A stretch of 64,000 nucleotides of DNA from Acidimicrobiia bacterium (GTDB taxonomy: Bacteria > Actinomycetota > Acidimicrobiia > Spongiisociales > UBA11373): NCBI GenBank assembly GCA_040902765.1, contig JBBDWO010000029.1:1-64000 (forward strand), written 5' to 3'. Within the stretch, counting starts at the first letter, position 1; every line of letters begins with the position of its first letter. A model generated the notes under the pieces. It did no database searches, was not told the origin of the DNA, and saw nothing but the letters and a program-made list of their open reading frames with translations. The translations under genes and the position numbers were made by a program. Below, piece by piece: positions 25,302 through 40,387 of the stretch.

Positions 25302-25347
25302 CGAGCGGCAGCCTACCGCCCCCACCCCGAGCGCCTACGCTCACTCC

Positions 25348-25542
25348 GTGACCACTGATCAGCCGAGTGACGCCGACCGCGAAGACCAGCGTCGACGCGA
25401 CAGCCTGGAGGCCGAACGCGTCCAACGCGAGGAGAGCCTCGCCGCCGAGGAGCGACGTAAGAACGACAGCGCCGAGGCCGAACAGCGCCGCCTCCAGGAG
25501 CGCAGCGACGACGACGACCGCCAGCGCGGCGACACCGCCTGA
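25348..25542 (+). CDS. Small highly charged protein
   Basis: A 64-aa, Glu/Arg/Asp-rich, probably helical protein (EAERVQREESLAAEERRK, ending RSDDDDRQRGDTA). GTG start. No family recognised. A related but broken copy lies at 37683-37815 (HAERKQREESLPAEERPK...DDDDRRRG), so the two copies bracket most of the accessory region. Confidence 0.55.
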   Translation: MTTDQPSDADREDQRRRDSLEAERVQREESLAAEERRKNDSAEAEQRRLQERSDDDDRQRGDTA

Positions 25543-25552
25543 TCCCGCGGCG

Positions 25553-26098
25553 ATGGAGCGGATCTCGGTCATAGGCAGTTCCGCCTCGGGCAAGTCCACC
25601 ATGGCCCGCACCCTGGCCGATTGCCTCCACCTGCCGTACCTCGAACTCGACGCGGTCTTCCACCAGCCGGGCTGGCAGCCGAAACCCGACGACGAGTTCC
25701 AAGCCGATGTGTCGGCGTTCGTCGCCGCGGACCGCTGGGTCGTCGACGGCAACTACACGAGTCATGGCGTATCTCAGCTCGTGTGGCCGCGTGCCGACAC
25801 CGTCGTGTGGATGGATCCGCCGAGGCGCGTGGTGATGATCAGGGTGATCCGACGCACGCTGCGAAGGATCATCACCCGCGAGGAGCTGTGGAACGTCAAC
25901 CGTGAGCCCTGGAGCAACCTCTACAGCACGAAGGCAGAGAAGAACATCATCGTGTGGGCATGGACCCGCTTCGAGCACACACGGGCCAAATACGAAGCAA
26001 TGCTCACCGACGGCACCTGGGCGCACGTGAACGTGGTGCGGCTTCGGAAGAAGCGAGAGGTGCGGGACTTCGGTGGAGCGCTCCGCTCAGGGGCGTGA
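25553..26098 (+). CDS. Adenylate-kinase-like P-loop kinase
   Basis: A 181-aa P-loop NTPase with Walker A IGSSASGKST followed by LPYLELDAVFHQPGW and WVVDGNYTS, the pattern of FlaR-like 'topology modulation' or adenylate-kinase-related proteins. The true substrate is unknown. Its TGA stop lies in the first copy of the dispersed accessory repeat. Confidence 0.8.
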   Translation: MERISVIGSSASGKSTMARTLADCLHLPYLELDAVFHQPGWQPKPDDEFQADVSAFVAADRWVVDGNYTSHGVSQLVWPRADTVVWMDPPRRVVMIRVIRRTLRRIITREELWNVNREPWSNLYSTKAEKNIIVWAWTRFEHTRAKYEAMLTDGTWAHVNVVRLRKKREVRDFGGALRSGA

Positions 26099-26134
26099 TC
26101 GCAGGCCTCACCCAGCGTGCGGGAATGTCATCCG
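26096..26134 (+). repeat. Accessory boundary repeat, copy 1
   Basis: TGATCGC, then CCTCACCC, then the core AGCGTGCGGGAATGTCAT. It lies between the kinase gene and higB, and supplies the kinase stop codon. Confidence 0.85.
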
Positions 26135-26166
26135 AAGCGGACTGATACTCGCAGTAGCGTTAGAGC

Positions 26167-26523
26167 GTGGGAGCCAAGAGACGCTGGCGTGACTACCGAA
26201 CCCCCGGCGGACGAAGACCGGTCAAGCAGTTCATCGATGGTCTGTCAGATGCGGATGCCGCTGCAATCGTCGCTGCCATGAAGGACGTGGAGGTGAATGG
26301 CAACGAAGTCGCGCACCATCTTGACGGTGACATCTACGAGGTGCGTGCTGCTGGTGACAAGCAGGCTTTCCGCATCCTGTACGCAACGGAGGGCAAGGAG
26401 GACCAAGTGCTTCTGGCCCTTGAATCGATCTCCAAGAAGACCCAGAGGACTCCCCGGCAGGCCATCCAGCTCGCGAAGCGGAGGCTTGCCGACTGGCGAT
26501 CGCGTGGCCGGAAGCAGTCTTGA
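26167..26523 (+). CDS. higB: HigB-type toxin (Gp49-like family)
   Basis: A 118-aa RelE-superfamily, phage Gp49-like protein: RRPVKQFIDGLSDAD, HHLDGDIYEVRA, a core FRILYATEG, and LLALESISKKTQRTPRQAIQLAKRR. HigB/RelE toxins cleave mRNA on ribosomes. GTG start. It precedes an XRE antitoxin, the toxin-first order typical of higBA. Confidence 0.85.
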   Translation: MGAKRRWRDYRTPGGRRPVKQFIDGLSDADAAAIVAAMKDVEVNGNEVAHHLDGDIYEVRAAGDKQAFRILYATEGKEDQVLLALESISKKTQRTPRQAIQLAKRRLADWRSRGRKQS

Positions 26524-26559
26524 ACTGCTATATCGTATTTGGTATATCGCTAACGATAT
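26520..26559 (+). promoter_or_regulatory. Promoter/operator between higB and higA
   Basis: TTGAAC (26520-26525) and TATATC (26543-26548) are spaced 17 bases, a good sigma-70-type promoter. The -10 overlaps a perfect inverted repeat ATATCG-ctaa-CGATAT (26544-26559), and another ATATCG is at 26530-26535. This suggests antitoxin-autoregulated internal transcription of higA. Confidence 0.6.
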
Positions 26560-26595
26560 GCCAATGTGATGCCGAAGAAGTACACGGGAGGGGCA

Positions 26596-26937
26596 ATGAC
26601 CGACTTTCTCACTGAACTCATCGAAGAGCGAGGCGAAGCAAACGAGCACTTCGCCGAGCTGGTCGCCGCCGCCTTCAAGCGACGCGAGCTCGTTCGACAA
26701 CTTGCTGAGATCCGCACCGAACTTTCGATCTCGCAGACACGGCTTGCCGCACTGATGGGAACGTCACAGTCCGCGGTTGCGCGACTTGAGTCCGGCGACA
26801 CTGACGCGCGCGCCTCCACCCTTGCACGATATGCAGCTGCCCTGGGGCACCGAATCGAGTTTGAGATCGTTGAGGAGTCCATCCCGCGAAGCGATGGCAA
26901 GCCCCAGAGGCGCCGTCAAGAAATCGCCTCGGCCTGA
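26596..26937 (+). CDS. higA: HigA-type antitoxin (XRE family)
   Basis: A 113-aa XRE protein. Its helix-turn-helix reads LSISQTRLAALMGTSQSAVARLESG. The ATG at 26596 has a strong GGGAGGGG ribosome-binding site; an upstream ATG at 26566 is possible. It likely neutralises HigB and represses via the palindrome over its own promoter. Confidence 0.85.
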   Translation: MTDFLTELIEERGEANEHFAELVAAAFKRRELVRQLAEIRTELSISQTRLAALMGTSQSAVARLESGDTDARASTLARYAAALGHRIEFEIVEESIPRSDGKPQRRRQEIASA

Positions 26938-26977
26938 ACTGCGCCAGCCGCACAACCGGCTCGTCGGCACGCAGCAC

Positions 26978-27023
26978 TGATCACGTCGCGGCACCCTCGC
27001 CGAGCGTGCGGGAATGTCACCTG
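26978..27023 (+). repeat. Accessory boundary repeat, copy 2
   Basis: TGATC, GCACCCTCGCCG, then GAGCGTGCGGGAATGTCAC. GCAC/GTGC and CTC/GAG can pair as a small hairpin. It lies between higA and the NYN gene. Confidence 0.85.
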
Positions 27024-27084
27024 AGTGGCGACGAGCATATGTGGAACCCCGACGACCGAGGGGGTGTCGTAGCCAACCCATACG

Positions 27085-27732
27085 ATGCCACGAGTGGCAA
27101 GGGTCAATGTGTATGTGGACGGCTTCAATCTCTACTTCGGGGCTCTCAAGGATCATCCTGATCTGAAGTGGCTCGATCTCGCTGCGCTCGCCAAACGCCT
27201 ACTCAAGGACGACGACACCGTCAACCAGATCAGGTACTTCACCGCTCGGATCGACTCGAGAGGTGATCCGCAGGCGCCCCAGCGACAGGAGACCTACCTC
27301 AGAGCGCTCAGGACCATCCCGAACCTGTCCATCGACTACGGACGGTTCAAGACGCGAACGAAGATGCAACGCCTCGCAAATCCACCCGCCTCGGGTCCGA
27401 AACGCGTCGAAGTGCTCGTCACCGAGGAGAAGGGATCGGACGTCAACCTCGCGACACATCTGCTCTGGGACGCGTTCAACGGCGAAGGCTCGACGTCCCT
27501 CGTCATATCGGGCGACACCGACCTCGTTCGCCCCATCGAGGTAGTGGCTCGACGTCTGAATAGGAAGGTGGGGGTCGTCAACGGGACGCTGAACGCCGCA
27601 CCAAGCCATGAGCTCGTGAGAGTCGCCTCGTGGATCAAGCGCCTGAGGATCGGAGTCCTCCGTGACTCACAGTTTCCAGAGAGCCTTTCCGACTCCACCG
27701 GCACATTCCGTCGGCCCGCTGGCTGGACATAG
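27085..27732 (+). CDS. NYN-domain (PIN-like) ribonuclease
   Basis: A 215-aa NYN/LabA-type protein. Acidic active-site residues appear in VYVDGFNLYF (Asp12), KGSDVNLATHLLWDAF (Asp119, Asp129) and SGDTDLVRPI (Asp144, Asp146). Family members are metal-dependent RNases, several linked to phage defence or RNA turnover. It stands alone between boundary repeats, followed by a strong hairpin. Confidence 0.85.
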   Translation: MPRVARVNVYVDGFNLYFGALKDHPDLKWLDLAALAKRLLKDDDTVNQIRYFTARIDSRGDPQAPQRQETYLRALRTIPNLSIDYGRFKTRTKMQRLANPPASGPKRVEVLVTEEKGSDVNLATHLLWDAFNGEGSTSLVISGDTDLVRPIEVVARRLNRKVGVVNGTLNAAPSHELVRVASWIKRLRIGVLRDSQFPESLSDSTGTFRRPAGWT

Positions 27733-27758
27733 GGAATCAGCCAGAAGGAGATAACGCA

Positions 27759-27782
27759 GAGACCCGCCTCGCGGCGGGTCTC
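27759..27782 (+). terminator. Strong GC hairpin after the NYN gene
   Basis: GAGACCCGCC-tcgc-GGCGGGTCTC is a perfect ten-base-pair stem with a four-base loop, 27 bases past the NYN stop. No T-tract follows on the plus strand, so it may be a factor-assisted terminator. Confidence 0.6.
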
Positions 27783-27843
27783 GCACCCAGCCACCGAGGC
27801 GACTGGGGGTCTGCAGTCATTATCGGGGTCATAGCCTGCTCAG

Positions 27844-27999
27844 TCAAGCGAATAGGTTCCGCAGTTGTTCGATCAGGTCTCGCCCAGGGGTGATCGTGGC
27901 GTAGTGCTCCTCGACGAGTCGTTCGATGGGTAGGGTTCGGCGTGCGCTACGTCTGCCTTGGGGTGGTGCGCGGTTGCGGAAGGAACCATGACAGCGTTC
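27844..27999 (-). pseudogene. Fragment resembling the C-terminus of a large serine recombinase
   Basis: The minus strand encodes, in a frame without a usable start, RTLPIERLVEEHYATITPGR... followed by DLIEQLRNLFA and a stop. This resembles the region after the zinc ribbon of large serine recombinases, where an 'HYATI' segment is common. The match is from memory and weak; the catalytic part is absent. If real, it is a remnant of a mobile element in the accessory region. Confidence 0.25.
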
Positions 28000-28028
28000 G
28001 GCCTTCGTTCGTTGGGGAGGGGTACTGC

Positions 28029-28994
28029 GTGGGTGAGGATGTTCGTCCGGCGCTCAAGTTCGGTGCTGACTGCTTCAGTCAGCACACAGATTGGCCGTCG
28101 TATCTGAGGGCAATGCAAGCTGCTGAGGATCTGGGCTACGACTCCCTGTGGACACCGGATCATCTGATCCCCACCCCGCCCGATGCCGACCCCGAAGGTG
28201 CGATTCTGGAGCCTTACATGTGCCTGGCCGGAGTAGCCGCCATGACCTCGAGGGCCACTCTTGGCTGCCTGGTCAGCCCGATCAGCCTCCGCCAACCGGC
28301 GCTCCTGGTGAAGATGATCACGGCCCTCGACCACATGAGCAACGGAAGAGCGATCCTCGGTTTGGGTGCCGGATGGCATCAGGAGGAGCATCGGCAATAC
28401 GGATTCGAGTTCGGGAAGGGATTCGGGGAGCGGCTCGACTGGCTTCGGCAGGCTCTCCCGGTGATGCGGGGAATGCTTGACGGAACTCGTCCGTCGTCTT
28501 TGGGAGGTCGATATGACATCCAGGAAGCGGTGAACTCCCCCGCACCCGTCCAGGCCCGCCTTCCTATCCTGATCGGCGGCACCGGCCCCAGGGTGACACT
28601 CCGACTCGTGGCCGAGTACGGAGACATGTGCAACCTGATCGGATCGCCGGACCAGGTCGCCACTGCCGAGGCCAAGCTGATCGAGCACTGTGAAGCGATC
28701 GATCGGGATCCGGCCCAGATCGAACGAACGGTCGCAATCCGTCAGCCCGTCATCCGCGATTCCCGCTCGGAAGCCGAACAGGTGCTGAACGAGATCTTCG
28801 CTCACAACGACTCCGAGCCGTGGAGCAGGGACATGATGGGAACTCCGCAGGACCTGGTTGAGAGATGTGCTCCATATGTCGAGATGGGCTACCGGCACCT
28901 CGTCTTTCAATACCTCGCCCCCTTCGATGCGCAGACGATGGAGCGCCTCGCTACTGAGGTGAGGCCGCAGCTCGAGGCCATCGCCAACGCCTGA
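28029..28994 (+). CDS. Luciferase-like (LLM) F420-type oxidoreductase
   Basis: A 321-aa member of the bacterial luciferase-like family: LGYDSLWTPDHLI, TLGCLVSPISLRQPALL, GRAILGLGAGWHQEEH, and LPILIGGTGPRVTLRLVAEYGD. Such proteins usually use F420 or FMN to oxidise small molecules. The GTG at 28029 is preferred over upstream starts because GGGGAGGGG lies just before it. It is a metabolic gene within a defence-like region; a second LLM gene lies at 41.4 kb. Confidence 0.85.
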   Translation: MGEDVRPALKFGADCFSQHTDWPSYLRAMQAAEDLGYDSLWTPDHLIPTPPDADPEGAILEPYMCLAGVAAMTSRATLGCLVSPISLRQPALLVKMITALDHMSNGRAILGLGAGWHQEEHRQYGFEFGKGFGERLDWLRQALPVMRGMLDGTRPSSLGGRYDIQEAVNSPAPVQARLPILIGGTGPRVTLRLVAEYGDMCNLIGSPDQVATAEAKLIEHCEAIDRDPAQIERTVAIRQPVIRDSRSEAEQVLNEIFAHNDSEPWSRDMMGTPQDLVERCAPYVEMGYRHLVFQYLAPFDAQTMERLATEVRPQLEAIANA

Positions 28995-29103
28995 CCCACC
29001 AGGACCTTCTGTGCGGCCCCCAAGTGTGGATCACCTGACTGGCGTGAGACGGAACGGAATCACAGCGAAGTCCTGACAGGGGTGCTGAAGGACCCGTGAC
29101 TCG

Positions 29104-29134
29104 TGATCGCCGCCGCCTCGGGGAGAGTGCGGGA
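29104..29134 (+). repeat. Accessory boundary repeat, copy 3
   Basis: TGATCGCC, GCCTCGGGG, then AGAGTGCGGGAATGTCACC. It lies between the LLM gene and the convergent GNAT gene, ending four bases from the GNAT stop. Confidence 0.85.
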
Positions 29135-29137
29135 ATG

Positions 29138-29644
29138 TCACCGGAGGGATTCCCGCCGCGGCGGATCCTGAGCGCGGGAGTGCAGCAACGTCACCGAGTG
29201 ATTGTCCGTCCTTACGACCTCGAAGCCGAACCGCTCGTACAGGCTCACGGCCCGGTTTCGGTCGTCGACCGAGAGGCTGCACCGAGTTACAGACCCCAGC
29301 AAGCGTCCCATGAGTGCGGTTCCCAGCCCATGTCCTCTCCATTTGGCAACAACCGCGATCGAGACCTCGGGCGTGTCTTCGTCTACGAATCCGTAGCCTG
29401 GTGCGTCACTCCCGAACCGGCGTACCCAAACCGCTCCCGCGGGGTCGCCTGACACGGTCTCAGCAACCCAGCCAGCATCTCCTGGCTGGCTGCCGAAGTC
29501 CCGGACGTACCTTGCAAGCTCGGGTTCGTCGACGACGGCCCTCCGCAACCGTGGATCTCCGCGTGGTACGAACAGCGCCTCGTACAACATGTCCACGAGA
29601 AACGGCTCGTCGTGCTCCGTCGCCTCACGGATACGGAACTCCAT
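29138..29644 (-). CDS. GNAT-family N-acetyltransferase
   Basis: A 168-aa acetyltransferase: EFRIREATEHDEPFL at the start, acetyl-CoA loop AKWRGHGLGTALM (the RGxGxG/A pattern), and VDDRNRAVSLYERFGFEVV at the end. The substrate cannot be inferred. The ATG at 29644 matches the fold start; a second ATG seven codons upstream and still longer frames exist. Confidence 0.8.
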   Translation of the reverse strand: MEFRIREATEHDEPFLVDMLYEALFVPRGDPRLRRAVVDEPELARYVRDFGSQPGDAGWVAETVSGDPAGAVWVRRFGSDAPGYGFVDEDTPEVSIAVVAKWRGHGLGTALMGRLLGSVTRCSLSVDDRNRAVSLYERFGFEVVRTDNHSVTLLHSRAQDPPRRESLR

Positions 29645-29798
29645 ACGCAGTGACGCTAGCGACATGCCCGCAGACAGCTCCGCCAGGTTCGGCCAGAGCC
29701 TGGAATTGTTGTATGCGTACGCGGCCGTCGCCCTCGGCTGGCGTTGCGACTGCCCCATGATCTCCCCGATCGCGGCTCTGACTGCGAGATGATCGACG

Positions 29799-30704
29799 GT
29801 GACCCGCAGGGTCGTCGAGGGTTGCCTACTCCGACGCGATGCTGAAGAGCCGGACGAGTTCGTGGTGTGGGTATGCGACTGCCTTGAGATCCAGTTGTCG
29901 CCACAGGACACATGGTTACCGGTCCGAGCTGGCTTGCCCCTCGCTACGGTCTACGCCATGGCTGGCTACGGAACGCATCTCTTCTGCCGGTCTTGGGCGG
30001 ATGATCTGATCCGTCGACTACTTGAGGTGTCACGAGGCTGGGCAAGAGAACTGCGCCTCGAGATGCACTACCGAACTCGCGCGGTTGACGGAGATAGCAC
30101 GCGGTGGGAACTCTGGGTGGACGGCAACTCCTTCGCCATCGCAGCTTGGAGCAGACAACTGGAGCGCGAATTGCCGACGGTCGCTCGAGGATTCGACCGC
30201 ATTCGCGAGAGCACGGCAGCGGCCATCGCTGAGTCTTTGGCAACGCGATGGATCGGTTGGTGTGTCGGCGATGAAACGGATCCCCGAGTCCGGACGTCCA
30301 CACGCGACGAGGGCCGATGGATCTGGCCCATCGTTGACTACCCCCTCGACACGCCGAACACTGCCCGACTGATCATGGCCGACGACTTGCTCGCGAGATG
30401 GCTTGTCGGAGAACTTCCCGAAGAGACCGTGGTTGAAGAGCTGCACACCATTGTCGAGGCGCTGTTACGCCACCGGCTCAGTGCGGGTCGATCAGTTCGT
30501 TGGCCCGAACTGCTTGTCCGGGCAGACGACGCGGGCCTACTGAGCCCGACTGAAGTCAAGGTACTGGAGGTGTTCAACCGTACGTGGCGTCGTGAGCTGA
30601 AGCACATGGGACGGGTGCTCACGACCGAGGAGCGTAAGGAAGCGAAGCGATTGTTGTGGAGTGTCCTATCGATTGCAGAGAACGCGCTCGGGAGTGCCAA
30701 GTGA
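29799..30704 (+). CDS. Hypothetical protein
   Basis: A 301-aa soluble protein from a GTG start; an internal ATG at 29958 would give 248 aa and may be the true start. The C-terminal third has LLSPTEVKVLEVFNRTWRREL and ends with TEERKEAKRLLWSVLSIAENAL, predicted helical. There are no recognised motifs. Codon use is less GC-biased than in the core genes. Confidence 0.6.
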   Translation: MTRRVVEGCLLRRDAEEPDEFVVWVCDCLEIQLSPQDTWLPVRAGLPLATVYAMAGYGTHLFCRSWADDLIRRLLEVSRGWARELRLEMHYRTRAVDGDSTRWELWVDGNSFAIAAWSRQLERELPTVARGFDRIRESTAAAIAESLATRWIGWCVGDETDPRVRTSTRDEGRWIWPIVDYPLDTPNTARLIMADDLLARWLVGELPEETVVEELHTIVEALLRHRLSAGRSVRWPELLVRADDAGLLSPTEVKVLEVFNRTWRRELKHMGRVLTTEERKEAKRLLWSVLSIAENALGSAK

Positions 30705-30879
30705 CTCTGGTGAGATCGTGTGCCGGCTAGGCGGCACCTCGGTCGTCGACCAGCGTCTGAGCGAGACGACGAGTCCAACTCCTGCGCCTCGATCGTGTCG
30801 TCAGCCTCTGGAACTGTGGCCGGTGATGTACTACTTGAGACCTGTCTTGGCCTTACGCGATCGCATTTCATGCTTCGAA

Positions 30880-31243
30880 CTAGCACTCAATGACCACGGT
30901 TCCCACTCCCACGTGCCTTCCCCATCCGCTTTTCGTTTCGAACTCCACTGCGCGCGACAATTCTCTGGCGTCCCTGAAGCAGGGGCGGTTGCACTTGAGG
31001 CACAATATCCCTGGCGAGCCTGCTCTACCTCGGGGTGGCCCGGGTGTGCAACGGATGGGCTCAGGGACTGTGCGGTTGATCTGAACACACACTTCCCTGG
31101 ATTCGCCGCAGCCGCCGCAGACCAGTCTTGCCTTGACGACCGCCGCAGACCAGTCTTGCCTTGACGAATCGCTCCAAGTTGCACCTCCAAGTCGAGATGG
31201 GCTCAACGTATCTCCAAGGTGTGACACGTTTGTGCAATCTCAT
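30880..31243 (-). pseudogene. Zinc-ribbon protein gene broken by an exact 28-bp duplication
   Basis: From an ATG at 31243 the frame reads MRLHKRVTPWRYVEPISTW... to VKARLVCGG, then is thrown out of frame by a perfect tandem 28-bp duplication (31112-31167). Removing one copy restores a 336-bp, 111-aa frame continuing CGES...IRCTPG...ILCLKCNRPCF to VGVGTVVIEC. Cys pairs CGGC and CLKC suggest a zinc ribbon. The mutation looks recent because the two copies are identical. Confidence 0.65.
31112..31167. repeat. Perfect 28-bp tandem duplication
   Basis: Two identical 28-bp units, 31112-31139 and 31140-31167. The length is not a multiple of three, so it frameshifts the overlapping zinc-ribbon gene. 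Confidence 0.95.
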
Positions 31244-31432
31244 CGGTTAACTGGCCAACGAGGATGAGGTTCACCGGCTGCAAGTTCGTGTTCTGAGTGT
31301 CTCGCGGGTGTCAAGTCGAGACAGACGGAATGTCCGCTCCCTAATCTGGCGGGGTGACTCCCGATGTAGACCACGTGGGCGCCCACCACGATCTCGAGCT
31401 CTCGATCTAGCTCGGTGCTGAGGCACTGAGGA

Positions 31433-31471
31433 CATCACCGCCACCTCGGCCGACGTACGTAAATGCCATCA
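31433..31471 (+). repeat. Accessory boundary repeat, degenerate copy
   Basis: CCTCGGCC then GACGTACGTAAATGCCAT aligns to the repeat core with mostly transition differences (about 18 of 26 positions match by eye). It falls where a boundary is expected, between the zinc-ribbon pseudogene and the AbiC-like gene. Confidence 0.45.
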
Positions 31472-31518
31472 GAACCTTGGGCCGACGGTGGTCCTGGATC
31501 TGGGTCGGCCGCGCCGAC

Positions 31519-32373
31519 CTATTCAAACCTACCGGATGACCTGAATGACAACTTCTCGGAACCCATGCTGACCGCAAGCTCATGCCAAGCGGTCTTGAGC
31601 CACCCGTAGCTCGCATCGATGGCCATGAAGTGCAGTCCTCGGAAGATGCCGAACTCCTCGGCATGCTCGGCGATGTCCCCATCGCGCTCGTTCACATCTC
31701 CCGACAGCATCCAGACCATCAAGAGAAGAAGCTCGTCGGAGGACAGTTGGGCTCGTAACAGCCGGCCGTACGTGAGGGCGCGATCGGTGTCCTCCATCGC
31801 GCCGAGAAACCTAAGTATCTCTCCCACCAACCTGAAGTAGTGGCCCATGTAGGGATAGCTGTCGCTGCTCAACTCGCCATAGGCCTGCTCTGCACGCTGG
31901 ACGGGAGACAGAGATCCGCTGGTCTCTTGAAGCAGGCGGTGCATCTGCAGAGCTAGGTGGTGGAGCGCCTGCCTTCCTGTGACGATGCCTCCAAGGTCGA
32001 GATCGCTCACCGTGTCACGATGCATTTCTAGCAGAGCGAAGAAGGCCGCTTCAGTGCGCTGTGACTCGATCGAGGCAAGCTGCGTCGCCACGACCTCACG
32101 TTGCTCCTCCATAGCCTGGCGGGCTCGTGCGATCTCCGCGCTTTGCAGTTCCAATTCGCGATTCTGGAAGAACAGCGCCACGACAACGCCCGCAAAGGCC
32201 AAGCCCGAGAACAGCGCTCCGACCAGGCCGAAGGCATCGCCCCACAGGGCGCGTTCACGCAGTCCGGGCCAGATCAGAGGCGGCCCAAACCCGACAACAA
32301 TCCACAGCAGCATGACGCCGCCGAAAGCGACGATCGCAACGGGTGTGACCCTGCGGAGCTGCCGTTCGGTCAT
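31519..32373 (-). CDS. AbiC-like putative phage abortive-infection protein
   Basis: A 284-aa protein with two N-terminal membrane helices (about 11-33 and 46-69), a coiled coil NRELELQSAEIARARQ, then FFALLEMHRDTV and the family hallmark YGRLLRAQLSSDELLLL (202-218). This layout matches the putAbiC family, linked to abortive infection in phage-infected cells. The mechanism is unknown. It occupies its own repeat-bounded interval. Confidence 0.8.
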   Translation of the reverse strand: MTERQLRRVTPVAIVAFGGVMLLWIVVGFGPPLIWPGLRERALWGDAFGLVGALFSGLAFAGVVVALFFQNRELELQSAEIARARQAMEEQREVVATQLASIESQRTEAAFFALLEMHRDTVSDLDLGGIVTGRQALHHLALQMHRLLQETSGSLSPVQRAEQAYGELSSDSYPYMGHYFRLVGEILRFLGAMEDTDRALTYGRLLRAQLSSDELLLLMVWMLSGDVNERDGDIAEHAEEFGIFRGLHFMAIDASYGWLKTAWHELAVSMGSEKLSFRSSGRFE

Positions 32374-32446
32374 CGGCTAGACAGCGTAGACCGAGCGAAC
32401 AGGATGGCACGTGACGAACAGAGATGGCCCGACAAACTCGCGGAGG

Positions 32447-32487
32447 TGATGCACCCCGCCTCAGCCAGCGTGCAGGAATGTCACCAG
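32447..32487 (+). repeat. Accessory boundary repeat, copy 4
   Basis: TGATGCACCCC, GCCTCAGCC, then AGCGTGCAGGAATGTCACC. GCAC/GTGC can pair. It lies between the AbiC-like and DUF3800 genes. Confidence 0.85.
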
Positions 32488-32505
32488 CGGAGAACGCCGA
32501 GTCGG

Positions 32506-33351
32506 CTACGGGGGTGAGAATAGGGCTGACCCAGGCTGGCGCCCCACCGGGTCGGAAACCGTGATTCCTCCACGCCACCGACCGCTGATATCGGAGTAGC
32601 GATACTGCAAGTCCTGAAACCGAGAGCCATACCGCATCCGCAAGGTGTCGTACTGCGGTGCGACGTGGACGCCTGTGATTACGCCTGCGCAGTAGGTCCT
32701 CGTTGCCATCGGGAACAGCACGCCGTTCACCAGATCCGCGATCTGTAGTCCGACGTGATTCCCGCTGCGTCCGAAGGTCGGCACTTCTACAACCCGGTTC
32801 AACTCGTCACCGAGGACTCGGTGCTTCATCGTGTACAGAGAATGGGCCACTCTCTCATCCAGCTGGTGAGTCCGGCTGTCCGCGACAACCATGCCTTCTC
32901 CGTCGTTGGAGATCAGGTATTGCTGGAACGCTCGGCACAGTGCTTGCATCGAGTAGGTGTAGGTGGAGCGACCATTGAAGGAGGCGCCGGGTGTCTTGAC
33001 CCACACTCGGGCGATCAGGCGGGCGTCGTGTGTTTCGAGTAGGTCGAACACTCGGTCCACAAACCCGATCGCTGTCCTTCTCTCGTCGCGCGAGCCGCTC
33101 CGCACGGCCCTGCGGATATCTGAAGCCTTGACCTCAACCAACACCGAGTCCAGATGGTGGCTCAATGACGACATCAGACCGGGGTAGAACCGGGTCTTGA
33201 GATCGAGGTAGGCCGCTGAAAGCGCTCCGACCTCGCTTGCGTCGATGATGAGGCCACCCAGCACGAAGACCGGCGCAACTACGGTCGGGCTCGCGCTTGC
33301 CAAGGGTATCGGCTGAGCATCACCCGCCTCATCGACGTAACAGAGGTACAT
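32506..33351 (-). CDS. DUF3800 protein (predicted RNase H-like nuclease)
   Basis: A 281-aa DUF3800 protein. It starts MYLCYVDEAGD, the family's acidic first motif (Asp7, Glu8, Asp11), and has VVADSRTHQLDE and GLQIADLVNGVLF later. The family is often encoded in defence islands and is predicted to be nuclease-like. The ATG at 33351 is preferred because homology begins exactly there. A ten-base-pair hairpin sits in its leader. Confidence 0.8.
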   Translation of the reverse strand: MYLCYVDEAGDAQPIPLASASPTVVAPVFVLGGLIIDASEVGALSAAYLDLKTRFYPGLMSSLSHHLDSVLVEVKASDIRRAVRSGSRDERRTAIGFVDRVFDLLETHDARLIARVWVKTPGASFNGRSTYTYSMQALCRAFQQYLISNDGEGMVVADSRTHQLDERVAHSLYTMKHRVLGDELNRVVEVPTFGRSGNHVGLQIADLVNGVLFPMATRTYCAGVITGVHVAPQYDTLRMRYGSRFQDLQYRYSDISGRWRGGITVSDPVGRQPGSALFSPP

Positions 33352-33403
33352 ATGGGGCCACTCTGCCAGATGCAGGCGGTGTGGGCCAGGCCTACAGGCA
33401 CAA

Positions 33404-33432
33404 CTGTGGCCCGACACAAGGCCGGGCCACAG
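33404..33432 (-). promoter_or_regulatory. Hairpin in the DUF3800 leader
   Basis: CTGTGGCCCG (33404-33413) pairs perfectly with CGGGCCACAG (33423-33432) around a nine-base loop, about 53 bases upstream of the DUF3800 start. It could be an operator or an attenuating RNA hairpin. Confidence 0.5.
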
Positions 33433-33559
33433 GACTTGCCGTCTGAGCCGAAGCCCCCACGGCGAACGATCAATGTCGCTGCCACAGAGCTTATCGCAAG
33501 GGCTGTGGCTCTGCAATAGGAATCGGTCCCATTGGCCCTGCAGTTGAGTGTTGTCGGTG

Positions 33560-33600
33560 TGATCGCTCCACCCTCGGCCAGGGTGCGGGAATGTCACCAG
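33560..33600 (+). repeat. Accessory boundary repeat, copy 5
   Basis: TGATCGCTC, CACCCTCGGCCAGGGTG, then CGGGAATGTCACC. CACCCT and AGGGTG form a perfect six-base-pair stem immediately before the conserved core. Confidence 0.85.
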
Positions 33601-33809
33601 GCCCGAGGGGCACCCCGTTCGCCAATGGGGCAATGGACGTCACTCTCAGCGCTGGTGTCTTCTCGTACTCCGATTCCGGCGGCTCCCGCGATCCTGTCGC
33701 ACTACTCCACGCCATGGGCCGATCCGCGGCCGACTGGCAACCGGTCTTCGACCGAGTGTGAGGGCAAGTACCTGCAGTGGAGATAGGGGCCACGCACTAC
33801 CCTCGGCAG

Positions 33810-34214
33810 GTGACATCATTCGAATCAATTCGGCAGGCGGTGACGAGTCACGAACAGCTCGCCATCGCCATGGCAAGCGCCACGGCTCTCGACGAGCAGG
33901 CCCGCAAGCTTGCCGAACCGCTCACCGCCCAATTCAAGGTTCTCATGGGCGAACACAGCGCCCTCGCCGCCGCGATGCGGGGGTTCGCGCGCGCGGAGTT
34001 CTCCTTCGGGAGTCTTGATCAAGCCATCCTTGGCAAGGCCGTGGACATGGCGGGGTCGTTGAAACGGCTCGCCTCGGGATTCGCCAGGCTGACGAAGACG
34101 GCATCGGCTCTGGGGCCGCAGTGGCCATCGATGGGCTTGAGGAGCGCCACGCCGGGTTGGTCTCAGCGGTCGCGCAGGAGGTTGCGGACAGGGCAGCGCC
34201 ATCCGATGTCCTGA
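33810..34214 (+). CDS. Hypothetical helical protein, possibly 5' part of a frameshifted gene
   Basis: About 134 aa from a GTG start, helical in character (TSFESIRQAVTSHEQLAIAM...). After about residue 98 the sequence becomes Arg/Ser-rich and looks out of frame, while the frame at 34121 takes over with normal composition. The two may be one gene with an indel near 34.1 kb. Confidence 0.5.
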   Translation: MTSFESIRQAVTSHEQLAIAMASATALDEQARKLAEPLTAQFKVLMGEHSALAAAMRGFARAEFSFGSLDQAILGKAVDMAGSLKRLASGFARLTKTASALGPQWPSMGLRSATPGWSQRSRRRLRTGQRHPMS

Positions 34215-34405
34215 CCGATCGCGGAAACAACGGCAACCTCCAACTGCAAGACGTCGCTCAGCTGTCCGGCCTTGTTCTCTTCTCCTTTGCCACCGTCCTA
34301 GCAGTCAGGGTCGCCTGGCTTACTACCGAAGGAGCCACATTCGTTGGCAGCGTTGCTGCTCTCGCCTTGTTGTGGGAGCGGGTGGTTAGCAAGTTCAACG
34401 AATAG
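34121..34405 (+). CDS. Hypothetical membrane-ending protein, possibly 3' part of the previous gene
   Basis: A 94-aa frame (GTG AIDGLEERHAGLVSAVAQEV...) ending in two hydrophobic segments, LSGLVLFSFATVLAVRVAWL and TFVGSVAALALLW. It overlaps the preceding frame by 94 bases and stays open upstream, which supports either a frameshifted single gene or programmed frameshifting. Confidence 0.5.
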   Translation: MAIDGLEERHAGLVSAVAQEVADRAAPSDVLTDRGNNGNLQLQDVAQLSGLVLFSFATVLAVRVAWLTTEGATFVGSVAALALLWERVVSKFNE

Positions 34406-34410
34406 CACAC

Positions 34411-34450
34411 ACTCTCCACGGCCAAGCGTGTGGGGATGCCCCCCAGGTCC
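34411..34450 (+). repeat. Accessory boundary repeat, degenerate copy
   Basis: CCACGGCCAAGCGTGTGGGGATGCC resembles the repeat core (AGCGTG.GGGAATGTC) and lies between the membrane-ending gene and the reverse transcriptase. It is weaker than the other copies. Confidence 0.4.
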
Positions 34451-34481
34451 GAGGCCCTATTAGCCGTTCGCCCGCTATCGC

Positions 34482-36236
34482 TCAAAATGGTTCGTCGTCT
34501 GGTCCGTAGTCGTCCCGCGCCACCGGAGCTGAACGAGTCGCAGCGGCGTCTGCCGCTCTGGTCACTCCAAGGTGCTGCACGAGGACATCAAGAATGCGCT
34601 CGCCACCGCGGCAAGCGTCAAGGAACACCTCCGCCCAAGAGGCACCAGCCTCTAACGCAAGGTCGGCCGCGATCACAAGGTCGGGGCGGAAGGCTTGTGG
34701 ACACTGCTTCCATAAACGGGCAAGGTCGACTCGCGTGAGCTCGCCGCGCGTGCCCAACAGACGGATCGCCGCCGCTCTGCGTGCCCAGTGTGCTGCGCCG
34801 TCCTCTGCATCGCGCCGCGCGGCCTCGATGAGTATTGCCGGGCAACTGCCGGAGACGGTTTCGGCGACGCGGTAGAGCCAGGCGGCCTGGGACGCGAAAA
34901 CGAACTGCTTCTCCGCGAGGACCGCTGCGACCACCTCGGCAACGTCACCGGCCTGCGAACTCGCCACGGCGAGGAGGTAGGTCGCGATCGCGTCCGTCTC
35001 CGACGGGTAAGCCCGCAAGAGATTGGCGCACTGATCGATTGCGAACCCGTCGTCAGCCGCGGCGAGCGTCGTTAGCGACTCTCTGAGGGTCGTGTGAAAC
35101 ACCTCCTTGGGCCAAGCCTTCTTGCCCGAACCGGGCCGATGCTTGACAGACTCCCGAAACAGGGCCTTTGCTGTCTCGACGTCGCTGGGAGTGAGATCGT
35201 CGCGCAGAATCTCGATCGCCTCACTCATGTCGAGACGCTGGTATGGCCCCAAGCCCTCGGTCCACTCCGCGGCAAACCGAATGAGGGTGTCGGGATCGTC
35301 ACCGAGCTCATCGATCATCTCCTCCGGGACTTGGAGGTGGATGAGTACCCGACGGATCTCCGCCGGCTTGCCGGACTGGAGTGCGGCGAGCTGTGCCTGC
35401 TCGTAGCGCTGCTGAAGTGCGGACTTCTCTCTCTCGTGGGCTCCAAGGGTTACCGCGTAACCGGAGACAGTCTCAACGCTGCTCTTCTCGCCGTTCAGGT
35501 TGAGACCCAACTCTCGCAGGTTGTCCTCAAAGAGAGCGAGCGCCTCGCGACCGCGCCCGTATGACGAAGCGGCGATGCGAACATCGTCGCCATGTCGCCA
35601 GTAGTCATGACCTGCAATCAACATTGAACGGTCGACGGGGGAGAGAAAGAACGTTGCGAGGACGTCTGATTCGACTAAACCCTGGGGAATGCCTCGATCT
35701 GATCGGGTGACCCTGCCAAGGAACTCTTCCAGGGCATCGACCACCTCCCGCTGGCCAGTCGCCTCGATCAAGAGGGATGCCAACCGAGAGTGGCTAATGG
35801 TCTCGTAGAAGCCTGCAACGTCAGCGACGACGATGTGAGTTGGTCGCGACTCAAGAGGCACACGCAAGAACTCGGCCCATCTCTTCGGTACCGGGGCTGA
35901 TCGGGGCCACAGGCTCGCCTCTGGGCTTGCCAGGGCCAACTCAATCCGAGGGGCGAGCCCTCTCGTGAGAGCGGCGTAGACCACTCGATCTTCGAGGGTG
36001 AGGAGCGCAGCGGAGCGCGTAGTGAAGTCGCTCTTCGGCACAGGAACCCTGATGAGAGCGACCGGCTGATATTGACCCCGTTCCATCGCACGACTTATCC
36101 GCTCCCAAAGCCGCCTGCCAACTTGCCCGAGCAACTTGTCCTCCGGTCGGGACGGCAGAAGATCGTTCCGAGTGACGGTTTGAGCCGCAGCCCCGATGTC
36201 AAGGTGGGGTGCCGCTCTTGAGAAAACGTCAGCCAT
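34482..36236 (-). CDS. Defence-type reverse transcriptase with helical C-terminus
   Basis: A 584-aa protein. Reverse-transcriptase motifs: A in VVADVAGFYETISH (Asp139), B as GIPQG (182-186), C as HGDD (215-218) in place of YxDD, and D as LGLNLNGEKS (243-252). The C-terminal 300 residues are helical and repeat-like, as in Abi/unknown-group RTs of the defence-associated (DRT) kind. No maturase or intron features are seen, so it is not a group II intron. An associated ncRNA or protein partner is not evident. Confidence 0.8.
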   Translation of the reverse strand: MADVFSRAAPHLDIGAAAQTVTRNDLLPSRPEDKLLGQVGRRLWERISRAMERGQYQPVALIRVPVPKSDFTTRSAALLTLEDRVVYAALTRGLAPRIELALASPEASLWPRSAPVPKRWAEFLRVPLESRPTHIVVADVAGFYETISHSRLASLLIEATGQREVVDALEEFLGRVTRSDRGIPQGLVESDVLATFFLSPVDRSMLIAGHDYWRHGDDVRIAASSYGRGREALALFEDNLRELGLNLNGEKSSVETVSGYAVTLGAHEREKSALQQRYEQAQLAALQSGKPAEIRRVLIHLQVPEEMIDELGDDPDTLIRFAAEWTEGLGPYQRLDMSEAIEILRDDLTPSDVETAKALFRESVKHRPGSGKKAWPKEVFHTTLRESLTTLAAADDGFAIDQCANLLRAYPSETDAIATYLLAVASSQAGDVAEVVAAVLAEKQFVFASQAAWLYRVAETVSGSCPAILIEAARRDAEDGAAHWARRAAAIRLLGTRGELTRVDLARLWKQCPQAFRPDLVIAADLALEAGASWAEVFLDACRGGERILDVLVQHLGVTRAADAAATRSAPVARDDYGPDDEPF

Positions 36237-36252
36237 GCTGAAGAGCCTAGGA

Positions 36253-36290
36253 CCCTGGGCCTCAGGCAGCGTGTGGGCATGTCATCCGAG
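36253..36290 (+). repeat. Accessory boundary repeat, copy 6
   Basis: CCTGGGCCTCAGG (stem CCTG/CAGG), then CAGCGTGTGGGCATGTCATCC. It lies between the RT start and the next minus-strand gene. Confidence 0.8.
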
Positions 36291-36310
36291 GAGGGTTCCC
36301 TGTCCGAGAT

Positions 36311-36757
36311 TCAGAGTCCGGAGTCCCTCCTGAGTTGGAACTCGGCGTAGGACCGGCCGAGGATCCGTTCGTGAAGGAGCTTCCGCAAGTCCTGAAGGTG
36401 CCGTAGCAGGTCAGACTTCCACTGCTCCTGCTCCTCCGTAAGCGGCGAACCAGGGTCGGTGTGAAGGCGAGTCTCAGCATCCCATCTGGTGAGCGTGTTG
36501 AACACAGAACGCGCTCTGTCGATCAATAATTGCTCCTTGACCCCAAGAGCCCATCCCTTTGAGATCAGCCGACCGAATCCCTGTCGCGCCCGCGGCCAAT
36601 TCTCACTACTGACGGACGACGCGAGCGGGGATAGGATCTCAGCCGCCTCAATTCTCGACTTCCTGATGAATTCGCGCCGGCTCACGAACACAGCCCCCGC
36701 CAGGGACAACGCGCCACCGAAGAGCGCGCCGATCAGCCCCAAGAAGATGTTGTCCAT
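36311..36757 (-). CDS. Small membrane-anchored protein
   Basis: A 148-aa protein with one N-terminal membrane helix (NIFLGLIGALFGGALSLAGAVFV) and a charged helical cytoplasmic part. No family recognised. The start at MDN (36757) is chosen for helix placement; another ATG is five codons upstream. Confidence 0.6.
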   Translation of the reverse strand: MDNIFLGLIGALFGGALSLAGAVFVSRREFIRKSRIEAAEILSPLASSVSSENWPRARQGFGRLISKGWALGVKEQLLIDRARSVFNTLTRWDAETRLHTDPGSPLTEEQEQWKSDLLRHLQDLRKLLHERILGRSYAEFQLRRDSGL

Positions 36758-36784
36758 GTCATCACTCCCCACTCCGAGTCTACG

Positions 36785-36820
36785 GGCTGGATTCAGCCAG
36801 CGTGCGGGAATGTCACCGGA
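36785..36820 (+). repeat. Accessory boundary repeat, copy 7
   Basis: GGCTGGATTCAGCC (stem GGCTG/CAGCC), then AGCGTGCGGGAATGTCACC. It lies between the divergently oriented small membrane-anchored gene and the next plus-strand gene. Confidence 0.85.
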
Positions 36821-36863
36821 GCAGGCTGTGTGAGGGATGAGGTTGCCGGGATACGATCTCCAG

Positions 36864-37628
36864 ATGTACGACCAGACCCGAATCGTCGATATCGACTCTG
36901 TGGACTCGTGGCCGCCCTTGGTGCTTGAGCTGATCGACCGGGTGATCGACAGCTTGGTGGGCGATGATTGGCTCAGGTATCCGAGGGATCACTTCAGGAC
37001 CGGGGACTTCGAGGAGGAGGAGCGCCTGCTGAGAGAGGCGCTGTCGTCGCATCGCCTTCTCGCGCACCACGCTGCCCGGCTACTTCAGCACGAGATTGAT
37101 GACATTCAGGAATCGTCCGGGCTGCGCGTCCTGACGGAGGATCTGCGGCTCGCAAAGGTGCAATCTGCTCTGGAGCATTATCCGGAGCTCGCAGCCCTTG
37201 ACCCGGGAGGGACAAAGATCCTTTCCGATGGGCCGAATTCCTGGCAGGGAACAGCAGGCGGCCGGATCGGCACGATCGACTTTGTGGCGCCGTTCAGCAT
37301 CTTCGAGCATCAGACGTGGGGCTTCTGGAACCTCTTTGACACCTGGGGTGGCGAGACACTGGGATGGCTCAAGGACGGCAGGGAGTCGAGCGAACTCCTG
37401 ATGCGCCTCACGGAGGCGAGCAAGCCCGTCATCGTCGAGTTCGGCGCGCGAGTCGCGACACTGAATACGTACAAGATGCTGCTTCCCGCGTTTGTCGGGA
37501 GTCGTGGCAGCGCGGACGACTACTGGGGTCAGTGGCGAACCAACGAGTCGATCCCGCCGGATTGGGTCGGGGAATTGATCACGCCCGATAGCCCACGGTG
37601 GCCGGATGGGCACGTCGAGGTGGCATAG
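36864..37628 (+). CDS. Hypothetical protein
   Basis: A 254-aa soluble protein (start MYDQTRIVDIDSVDSW; an ATG at 36837 is also in frame). The N-terminal half is acidic and helical; the C-terminal half has Trp-rich segments (HQTWGFWNLFDTWGGETLGW). No recognised family. Last gene before the broken charged-protein copy. Confidence 0.6.
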   Translation: MYDQTRIVDIDSVDSWPPLVLELIDRVIDSLVGDDWLRYPRDHFRTGDFEEEERLLREALSSHRLLAHHAARLLQHEIDDIQESSGLRVLTEDLRLAKVQSALEHYPELAALDPGGTKILSDGPNSWQGTAGGRIGTIDFVAPFSIFEHQTWGFWNLFDTWGGETLGWLKDGRESSELLMRLTEASKPVIVEFGARVATLNTYKMLLPAFVGSRGSADDYWGQWRTNESIPPDWVGELITPDSPRWPDGHVEVA

Positions 37629-37682
37629 GGAACGGAGCGCCAGGACTAGGTCCGAACCGCGGTCAGGCTGGCTGCAAGTGCC

Positions 37683-37815
37683 ATGCCGAGCGCAAGCAGC
37701 GCGAGGAGAGTCTCCCCGCCGAGGAACGCCCCAAGTCAGATCACGACGACGCCGAGCAAGGCGAGCGCAGGAACGGAGCGGATGACGACGACCGCAGGCG
37801 CGGCGTTTACGGACT
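37683..37815 (+). pseudogene. Degenerate copy of the small charged-protein gene
   Basis: The frame encodes HAERKQREESLPAEERPK...AEQGERR...ADDDDRRRG, clearly related to the protein at 25348-25542 at both protein and DNA level (GCGAGGAGAG.CT..CCGCCGAGGA is shared). The N-terminus and a proper start are missing, so it is probably a remnant. Confidence 0.6.
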
Positions 37816-37879
37816 GAGCGGCGCCTAGAAGAGCGCTCGCCTTCTCCTTTCTTGGTGCCTTCTCGAGATGGGAATCTGC

Positions 37880-37928
37880 GTTTAAGATCTTAAGTGGATT
37901 GACAGACGCTTAAACTCACGATTAGTCT
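37880..37928 (+). promoter_or_regulatory. Promoter with palindromes upstream of the DGQHR gene
   Basis: A perfect -35 TTGACA (37899-37904) and a weak -10 TAGTCT (37923-37928) at 18 bases. Inverted repeat GTTTAAG (37880-37886)/CTTAAAC (37909-37915) brackets the -35, and the 12-bp palindrome TTAAGATCTTAA overlaps the left arm. Binding of a repressor there is plausible. Confidence 0.6.
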
Positions 37929-37961
37929 CTTGCGAAGTCCCACCAAGGAAGGTAACGCCCC

Positions 37962-39245
37962 ATGTCCACACCAGATATTCCGACGCTTCCTAAGACTCTT
38001 TCGGGTCTTCAGCCGACGGATGACTATGTCGCGCAACAAACGTCCCAGGGCGGGCGGCTTCACTATGCGGTCGCGTTGCCACTTTCGCAGGTGCCGGTGG
38101 TGCTTCCTGTTCCGGACCCGGCCATACCGCTCGAAGACAACCGACAGGTCAGGGTCAATCACGCTCAGTCCTTCGCCGAGTACATCAAGAAGAACGCGGA
38201 GTGGCATGCCGGTCCCCTGACAGTTCGGACCACAGCGCGCGCCGTCTCGTTTGAGCCCTTTCCCGGGGGGGACTACGGGACTTTGAAAGTCGGCGTCCTG
38301 AAGGTGCCACGAAATGACCGGCGCAGTTTTCGCATTGTCGACGGGCAACACCGTGTCCTAGGCGTGTCTCGGCTCCTTGAGCAGCTGAGCAACGAGGTCA
38401 CCAACCAAGTGTCGAAGGTCGCTGCCGCCAAGCGAAACGGTGAACCCGCCGCGGCTGTGAACTCGCTGCAGGAGAAATTGCGTGACTTGGAGAGAATTCA
38501 GAAGCGGGTGTCGGAGGACTCAATCTTCATGGACCTGATCATTGAGAACGACACGGAGAAGGCACGTCAGATCTTCGTTGATGTCGCCAACAACGCCGTC
38601 GGAGTCACGAAGTCCGTCACCTCGCGCTTCGACTCGAGGAAGGTGGTCAATCGCGCTCTCCATGGCCTTCTAAGCGATGGCGACCTGAGCCCGGCCCTGA
38701 TCGGTCGAGTCGACCTGCAGCAGGACCGAATTGGAGGAGCCAATCCCAATCTGTTGGGCGCCAAGCACGTCGCAGACATCATCCGGATTGTCGCGGTGGG
38801 GCCTACCGGCCGTGTCTCTCGGGCCCAGGAGAAGACGCTTGACGCCGAGCTACTCGCCAGGCAAGCGAACCGGTTCTTTGAAGTGCTATCGAAAGGCTTC
38901 CCCGAGATTGAGGCAATCGCAACCGGTAGGAAGGGTCCGGCTGAACTCCGGCCCCGCAGTCTGGTGTTGTCGACCACGATGCTTCGGGTACTGGCTGGCG
39001 TCTACTACAACCTGAAGACCAACTCCGCGTCGGAGGCGGACATCGTGTCCTTCTTCAATCGCCTCGCAAAGCACATGGAAGCCCCAGTTGATGGGACGAC
39101 CCCGAGTGGCCAGCTCCTTCTAGGCGCGACGACGAGCGAGGCATTCACAGACGGTGCGACGGCGCCGGGAGCTCGGGCGCAGCAAGTGCGGGAGTTGGCA
39201 ACCGTATTGACAGAGTGGGCTACAACGCCACCACCGGGGTTTTGA
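37962..39245 (+). CDS. DGQHR-domain (DndB-like) protein
   Basis: A 427-aa protein with the ParB-like signature IVDGQHR (125-131), QVRVNHAQSFAEYI upstream, and IFVDVANNAVGVTKSVTSRFDSRK, as in DndB/DGQHR proteins. DndB controls phosphorothioate modification operons, but no dndCDE are nearby. AAGGAAGG precedes the ATG by nine bases. Its TGA overlaps the next ATG (TGATG), so the two are coupled. Confidence 0.85.
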   Translation: MSTPDIPTLPKTLSGLQPTDDYVAQQTSQGGRLHYAVALPLSQVPVVLPVPDPAIPLEDNRQVRVNHAQSFAEYIKKNAEWHAGPLTVRTTARAVSFEPFPGGDYGTLKVGVLKVPRNDRRSFRIVDGQHRVLGVSRLLEQLSNEVTNQVSKVAAAKRNGEPAAAVNSLQEKLRDLERIQKRVSEDSIFMDLIIENDTEKARQIFVDVANNAVGVTKSVTSRFDSRKVVNRALHGLLSDGDLSPALIGRVDLQQDRIGGANPNLLGAKHVADIIRIVAVGPTGRVSRAQEKTLDAELLARQANRFFEVLSKGFPEIEAIATGRKGPAELRPRSLVLSTTMLRVLAGVYYNLKTNSASEADIVSFFNRLAKHMEAPVDGTTPSGQLLLGATTSEAFTDGATAPGARAQQVRELATVLTEWATTPPPGF

Positions 39246-40183
39246 TGGGCGCAAGGAACTGGACAACTGGAGCGCGAGACTACCCAATGAACCTTGAGGA
39301 TCTCCGTGGCTCTCAGGTAGGCGATGTAGCCCTCCTCTTCGATGACAGCACGGTCGTGTCAGCGGCCTTCCATTACCACGCGCAGATCGCCTTCGCTCAC
39401 ACCGTCAACGAGCTGATTCGCCTTAGTGGCCAATCGGTGCCGATGCACTGGGATCCGAGAGTTGGCTCAGTCGAGTGGTGGCGAGTGATTGAGGGAACGG
39501 TTGCACTGCTACACAGGGTGCTTCTCCGAGAGCGAGAATCGGGGTTGCGGCCGGACCTAGCTGACTCAACAGATGAAAGAGCCGACGTCCTTGACAAGTG
39601 GTCGGCGATCGCTCGATGGTTCTCGAACGGCCTTCACTCTCCACCATCCCAACTAACTGGGCTGGTGGTAGAGCTCAGGGACTTCCGGAACTCCTTTGAG
39701 CACGCCACGCGAGCAAGCACTCGCACCCGCAAACACTCGAAGCTCGCAGAGGCCCCCGCCGCAGCGAATGTCGCTGATGCCATGGAGGCCATGGCTATCT
39801 GTGTGGCCGCCTCCGCTTACTTCCGCTACGTCCTCCCGGGGACTGACCTTATGCCGCAGATAGTCGCCCCCTCGCGAGAGCACGTGATGTTTGAACCACT
39901 GGATGTCGTCGCGCGCGAGGCCCTGTTCCCAATGTACCTGCGACTTCTTGAGGCTCGCGGCCTTGGGACCGACATCTCCCTCTACAACGGTCTTGGCCAG
40001 ATCAGAGGGCAGGCCCTCGTGAGTACGGCCCTCATCGTTCGGTATGAGGACGAGAACAGTCTGCCCGACGCGGTGCAAACGATCGATGTGCTCAGCGATC
40101 TCGGAACTTGGGTGGAGACCCGAGAGACCCCGGATCCAGGCATGTTTCGCCTACCTTCGTACGGCGTCCGGTCGCAACAATAA
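39245..40183 (+). CDS. HEPN-like protein coupled to the DGQHR gene
   Basis: A 312-aa protein. Residues 148-153 are RNSFEH, within ELRDFRNSFEHATR, matching the RNxxxH catalytic signature of HEPN RNases; the surrounding region is helical. No other domain is recognised. HEPN proteins act as RNases in toxin-antitoxin and abortive systems. The start at 39245 is fixed by the TGATG coupling. HEPN assignment rests on this motif alone. Confidence 0.6.
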   Translation: MGARNWTTGARDYPMNLEDLRGSQVGDVALLFDDSTVVSAAFHYHAQIAFAHTVNELIRLSGQSVPMHWDPRVGSVEWWRVIEGTVALLHRVLLRERESGLRPDLADSTDERADVLDKWSAIARWFSNGLHSPPSQLTGLVVELRDFRNSFEHATRASTRTRKHSKLAEAPAAANVADAMEAMAICVAASAYFRYVLPGTDLMPQIVAPSREHVMFEPLDVVAREALFPMYLRLLEARGLGTDISLYNGLGQIRGQALVSTALIVRYEDENSLPDAVQTIDVLSDLGTWVETRETPDPGMFRLPSYGVRSQQ

Positions 40184-40387
40184 GCGGTGACCGAACCCGC
40201 CCTCGACAGGTGGTGGGAGGCCATCCAAGTCAAGGACTCATGTGCAAGGCTCAGTAGCTCGATCTGTGTTGCGACTATTTCGACTATTGCGTTAAATGCG
40301 GTGATCGTGTAGGTTTGCTGCAGGAGGTAGATCATCAGCAACCAACCCGCCGCGAGAGTCTCGGAAGTCAACGATACGGCCCCCGGC

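Follow-up and report, generated by a model that had tools for sequence, protein, structure and literature searches.

Arrays of exchangeable single genes between dyad sites that resemble a serine-recombinase target in a family of uncultured soil Actinomycetota

Genomes from one family of uncultured Actinomycetota of the soil contain rows of single, swappable genes between sites of about 53 bp that look like the target of a serine recombinase. The repeats were recognised in a 64,000-nucleotide stretch of one genome (the window) and followed through its relatives; we read them as the recombination sites of an integron-like gene-cassette capture system in which a large serine recombinase (LSR) is most likely at work, and put the probability of this reading at about 70%. 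Integrons are the textbook case of bacteria gathering single genes at a dedicated platform and, to our knowledge, all known integrons combine a tyrosine recombinase with folded single-stranded sites. If the reading is true, the arrays would represent an independent solution using serine chemistry, and cassette capture would have evolved more than once.

Results

A directional site divides a lineage-specific island into units

The core AGCGTGCGGGAATGTCAC, searched with up to three mismatches, gives seven matches in the window, every one on the plus strand, where shuffled sequence would give 0.09. A position-weight profile spanning −14 to +23 relative to the core start was iterated over the relatives, and the profile so trained finds exactly eight strong plus-strand sites in the window (29.6–41.5 bits; Table 1), the best minus-strand match reaching 13.9 bits. 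The original prediction had listed nine copies of a repeat of about 40 bp, all on the plus strand and all at gene boundaries. Eight of the nine are retained by the profile, every one of them on the plus strand, including the copy at 31433 that had been called degenerate, which is real because it scores 31.1 bits; the copy at 34411 scores below 10 bits and is not supported. The length also had to be revised, as the repeat is a dyad of about 53 bp that runs from about −29 to +23, counted from the core start. When the genome to which the window belongs was searched with the pattern (up to two mismatches), six of eight matches fell in the window array. A lone weak site-like match at window position 48167 (20.8 bits), outside the island, is probably due to chance. 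The window gave no match in a search of Rfam and holds no tRNA or tmRNA that could have been the integration target.

Table 1. Features of the island and its cassette array in the window.
Feature	Coordinates	Strand	Remarks
Lineage-specific island with cassette array	25302..42363	.	flanks match syntenic regions, interior does not (blastn/tblastn)
Cassette site 1	26085..26137	+	core start 26114; profile 41.3 bits
Unit 1: higBA-type toxin-antitoxin pair (Gp49 + HTH_3)	26167..26937	+	Pfam
Cassette site 2	26974..27026	+	core start 27003; profile 41.5 bits
Unit 2: NYN-domain protein + luciferase-like monooxygenase	27085..28994	+	NYN protein = PADLOC HEC-09, 5.6e-45
Cassette site 3	29095..29147	+	core start 29124; profile 36.6 bits
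Unit 3: GNAT acetyltransferase (−) + hypothetical protein (+)	29138..30704	.	Pfam
Cassette site 4	31423..31475	+	core start 31452; TACGTAAATG type; profile 31.1 bits
Unit 4: putAbiC-domain protein	31519..32373	-	PF16872, 5.9e-11
Cassette site 5	32438..32490	+	core start 32467; profile 38.0 bits
Unit 5: DUF3800 protein	32506..33633	-	PF12686, 1.2e-12
Cassette site 6	33551..33603	+	core start 33580; profile 40.1 bits
Unit 6: small frameshifted gene (+) + reverse transcriptase (−)	33777..36236	.	defence class UG22
Cassette site 7	36239..36291	+	core start 36268; profile 29.6 bits
Unit 7: small protein, family not assigned	36311..36772	-	no Pfam match
Cassette site 8	36770..36822	+	core start 36799; profile 35.4 bits
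Right part of island: uncharacterised protein, DndB-domain protein, more ORFs, second luciferase-like monooxygenase	36837..42230	.

The island that holds the array (~17 kb) is absent from the orthologous interval of genome G008, where the flanking genes are adjacent and lie about 77 bp apart; its absence is closely similar in G002 and G004, where the corresponding interval is short and site-free. Measured from flank to flank, the interval spans 18.7 kb in the window as opposed to 1.9–4.9 kb in six relatives. An accessory region had been recognised here from the start but was drawn too small, as the whole of the island is missing from the G008 interval. The profile search recognised no site in the right part of the island. 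The listed open reading frame of unit 5 runs past site 6, and its real start is probably downstream.

The sites are clustered, co-oriented and intergenic across the family

The repeat is present in all 13 other genomes of the same family that were examined (14 of 14 with that of the window), at 1 to 32 profile matches per genome; in the remaining families of the order its frequency is close to that of a reversed-pattern control. The array-bearing loci of the 14 genomes (0.83 Mb) contain 169 sites of at least 16 bits (166 at 18 bits or more), compared with one profile match in 2.5 Mb of shuffled control. Within a genome, arrays are spread over several unrelated loci. When all loci are taken together, 90 of the 93 neighbouring site pairs within 5 kb are co-oriented and 156 of 157 sites lie outside called genes, though the DNA is 77% coding, which bears out the predicted placement at gene boundaries; the sites are often near stop codons. 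The median unit measures 790 bp and most commonly holds one gene, and some units span just 52–143 bp. Genes run against the direction of the site in 61 cases and with it in 47, in agreement with the claim that the sites keep one direction irrespective of gene strand, and the clustering and shared orientation across genomes speak against a random scatter of copies. Unit genes have a GC content of 0.626 and a codon score of 0.128, both below the values for the loci overall (0.660 and 0.236, respectively).

Exact-pattern matches outside the lineage, in IMG/VR (L069–L071) and in Kosakonia, Bacillota and Ectothiorhodospira contigs (L064, L066 and L067), have no profile score and were set aside as chance. 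Direct repeats of about 160–320 bp occur near array sites at L110 5699–6107, L092 8130–8489 and L039 8885–9518, possibly as unit duplications.

The site resembles a double-stranded dyad

Alignment of 148 distinct sites from −29 to +23 reveals a dyad centred at −3, with inner arms CCGTCCCCT / AGCGTRCGG and an outer motif, CTCNGGTGACA, at −28 to −18 that has its mirror copy at +12 to +22. Conservation is strong in the right arm and weak in the left. RNAalifold on 66 of the sites returned no pairs and no consensus fold, and the short stems of differing sequence that the original prediction had taken as a sign of conserved structure show no covariation; the claim of a folded element is therefore not supported. 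Because of both results the symmetry is attributed to a double-stranded binding site and not to a folded attC, and the inverted repeats make better sense as paired arms of a protein-binding dyad. In its anatomy, the ~53-bp dyad is like a serine-integrase att site. A reading of the cassette sites as attL-type hybrids was tried and dropped because both arms show the long spacing; the arms lie 18 bp from the centre, and the internal sites are all of one type.

The array anatomy, with one gene per unit and co-oriented sites, would also be seen in a canonical sedentary integron whose attC family is divergent. Such an integron should carry IntI, and no protein in the 14 genomes rises above the curated cut-off of TIGR02249; together with the missing fold and covariation and a site consensus that is free of a GTTRRRY core, this leaves the explanation a practically negligible probability. 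The same results support the original view that the repeat is not a recognised attC.

Flanks are exchanged at the sites

All site pairs were compared over 370 bp on either side, with adjacent sites of one array, which share flanks trivially, set aside. About 15 pairs have a common left flank up to the site and unrelated right flanks, and five pairs have a common right flank and unrelated left flanks; both flanks are common to only one between-contig pair, which comes from near-identical DNA. The window's higBA unit, bounded by sites 26114 and 27003, recurs at 83–88% nucleotide identity in G003, which belongs to another genus, where it sits between two sites of the same kind in surroundings unrelated to those of the window. 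A third higBA homologue lies between the PNP and etfB genes of G008, which places higBA at different loci in three genera; the PNP/etfB spot in the window genome is an empty 98-bp gap. An empty unit of 52 bp is present twice in one G008 array. Neither this duplicate nor linkage within the site, which is ambiguous, pinpoints the base of the crossover.

These comparisons of natural genomes show units that have evidently been exchanged and lost at site boundaries. The predicted integron-like cassette array thus holds as a way of working, in that units are gained, lost and placed in new contexts with the breaks at the sites; gain and loss between relatives is further seen in the array that is missing from the same spot, where gene order is not identical. 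A static regulatory, terminator or insulator repeat would account for the intergenic position of the sites and their frequent proximity to stop codons. It would not be expected to keep its direction irrespective of gene strand, to have flanks that exchange at the site or to leave empty loci in relatives, nor do the sites form a hairpin, and we consider this explanation very improbable.

A clade of large serine recombinases is linked to the arrays

A 2.3-kb segment recurs beside arrays in several genomes; it encodes an LSR, and most copies also encode an HUH replication protein (PF23343). The LSR has the domains Resolvase, Recombinase and Zn-ribbon (PF00239, PF07508 and PF13408) and matches generic LSR domains; its closest counterparts among phage integrases are serine integrases from phages of Mycobacterium and Streptomyces, at no more than 45% identity over half the protein. 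Copies of at least 50% identity occur in 8 of the 14 family genomes (counting a partial 52% copy in G013) and in none of the other genomes of the order sample, which yielded distant copies only. Eight of the ten members of the LSR clade have a site within 4 kb (G107 counted), the two others being a frameshifted copy in G011 and a copy of 50% identity in G001; seven distant LSRs (about 33–43% identity) have no site nearby. The complete module has a fixed order, in which co-oriented sites are followed by Rep pointing the same way, LSR pointing the other way and then the chromosome.

The original prediction had asked for a recombinase gene at one end of the array. The window array and its island contain no LSR, whereas sister arrays in other genomes have one at their end, and the window genome itself encodes this LSR on another contig (C20, 85402–86781); this copy (L095) is the exception to the module order and has just weak sites around it. 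In the sister arrays, the role of an integrase with its own site adjacent appears to be played by LSR, not by IntI; the window array has none in cis. G008 has two copies, one interrupted (L033 13013–14436, on contig C6) and one intact (on C10). The small HUH replication-type protein that travels with LSR (REP_ORF2-G2P) is found at L111 2476–2949, L073 13899–14378, L095 6945–7418 and L138 3968–4444, and its company suggests that the LSR element has a circular form that replicates.

Most members of the LSR clade carry a variant of the array site. It lies just upstream of the LSR start codon and is oriented as the LSR gene, with its core start 22–24 bp before the start codon in the same register in five LSRs. 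In four upstream regions it is the best profile match, each at the 0.4–0.5% level of background windows, and it is so too in G107, a genome outside the profile training, at 18.4 bits. Its outer arm motif is found at +10, compared with +15 in the cassette sites; among nine LSR ends, the +10 position has the top score in five and comes within 1 bit of the top in three more. In serine integrases, attB-type arms have the zinc-ribbon motif 5 bp nearer the centre than attP-type arms (PMC3783163), and the shift from +15 to +10 matches this rule. In G009, the same left flank of about 90 bp, beside copies of one gene, joins an LSR-type arm in L111 and a cassette-type arm in L037; the break falls within the core, and the pair represents a natural recombinant of the two site types.

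An array end made up of LSR, Rep and variant site is element-like, and it would fit, as would the hybrid-type arm at the LSR end, a tandem accretion in which small LSR elements integrate one after another at a single attachment locus and then decay; accretion has been described for serine-integrase elements in streptococci. The units would then be remnants, not cassettes moved singly in trans. They are mostly single genes of about 0.8 kb, however, and can be far shorter; the same unit is found beside different neighbours; and the internal sites are of one type and not attL/attR pairs. Tandem accretion of this kind is accordingly regarded as unlikely.

The host XerC and XerD recombinases could instead move the units at dif-like sites, like plasmid dif modules or IMEX phages. 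XerC- and XerD-like recombinases are encoded in every genome, arrays exist also without an LSR, and no dedicated tyrosine recombinase was found beside arrays; in G008, which has several arrays, the XerC/XerD-type proteins are the only PF00589 proteins. The dif site has 28 bp with 11-bp arms and is unlike the long dyad described above, the LSR bears a variant of the array site, and the sites are nearly confined to one family though Xer is universal. We judge movement by Xer to be quite improbable.

Discussion

Each unit consists of one gene, sometimes two, and one site, and would be excised and inserted at the site core, in which case each junction keeps a site of the same orientation and arrays can grow, shrink and shuffle. 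In the scheme that we favour, an LSR that acts mostly in trans would cut at the dyad centre, and units would be released as single-site circles and reinserted at another site. The LSR, often with the HUH replication protein, forms the end of some arrays and bears its own variant site, the LSR-proximal site being perhaps the product of the original integration of the LSR element. The window array would depend on the LSR from contig C20. We infer the part of LSR as the catalyst of exchange, the site pairs used, the circular intermediates and any role of Rep. The more specific proposal, that an LSR working largely in trans recombines like-with-like double-stranded sites into multi-locus arrays of single genes, defence and toxin-antitoxin genes among them, and that this evolved independently of IntI/attC, is one we hold to be probable, with somewhat less assurance than the general reading.

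Characterised LSRs join attP with attB and disfavour like-with-like pairings (PMC3783163), yet the arrays consist of one site type; this, together with the small share of array-bearing genomes that keep a member of the LSR clade (only 9 of 26, some with partial or frameshifted copies), is the main gap in the proposal. Either many arrays are orphans or another enzyme acts on them. The orphans might be relics comparable to attC clusters that lack an integrase, or such an enzyme might serve them. Neither polymorphism within a species nor a circular form was seen in the genomes compared. The arrays make it testable whether the directionality rules of LSRs bend in nature, and an LSR that tolerates like-with-like sites would, if it exists, be of use in genome engineering.

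We rate the system as one that works like an integron without belonging to the integron family. With integrons, sedentary chromosomal integrons and CALIN it shares arrays of single-gene units, co-oriented sites and the exchange of units between genera, as well as many arrays that lack an integrase in cis and, apparently in some sister arrays, an integrase gene with its own site by its start; it differs from them in having no IntI, a site with neither fold nor GTTRRRY boxes, genes on both strands, and a likely enzyme that is a serine rather than a tyrosine recombinase. SCC/SCCmec and the Enterococcus cassette chromosome (Ccr) also involve LSR cassettes, which can line up as tandem composites with direct repeats at their boundaries, but SCC is large, sits at one conserved gene of the rlmH type and usually carries ccr, whereas here one-gene units occupy many loci, usually away from the recombinase. 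Serine-integrase phages and integrative elements of Actinobacteria have the same order of Resolvase, Recombinase and Zn-ribbon, an attP-like dyad and an upstream att-like site; they integrate once at an attB, and in the literature searched none was found described as building single-gene arrays. Plasmid dif modules (XerC/XerD) resemble the units in being small gene modules, often toxin-antitoxin, between short recombination sites; they differ in their 28-bp sites on plasmids, the alternating orientation of these sites and the lack of a dedicated recombinase. No description of a serine-recombinase cassette array was found in the open literature, a scope that leaves subscription papers and preprints aside.

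Cargo of the units and minor observations

Few of the 98 unit proteins share a Pfam family; they include hydrolases, GNAT and HTH/toxin-antitoxin proteins, DoxX, cyclases and single matches to many others. The main matches to defence models are the window's reverse transcriptase of unit 6 (34482–36236; PADLOC RT_UG22, 1.7e-93), a candidate defence class found here inside a cassette unit, its HEC-09 NYN protein and, in the unit proteins overall, a SoFic-like protein. If the reading is true, the arrays would be a new place to look for accessory genes, that of the window alone holding the UG22 reverse transcriptase, an AbiC-like protein, NYN/HEC-09 and a toxin-antitoxin pair.

In the right part of the island, the DndB-domain protein (37962–39245) has no other dnd genes noted alongside. 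A small, highly charged open reading frame (..RREESLAAEERR..DDDDRQRG..) at 25411–25531 has a degenerate second copy at 37685–37805, both inside the island, and the non-coding tail of unit 3 contains a perfect 28-bp tandem duplication, CCGCCGCAGACCAGTCTTGCCTTGACGA, at 31112–31167.
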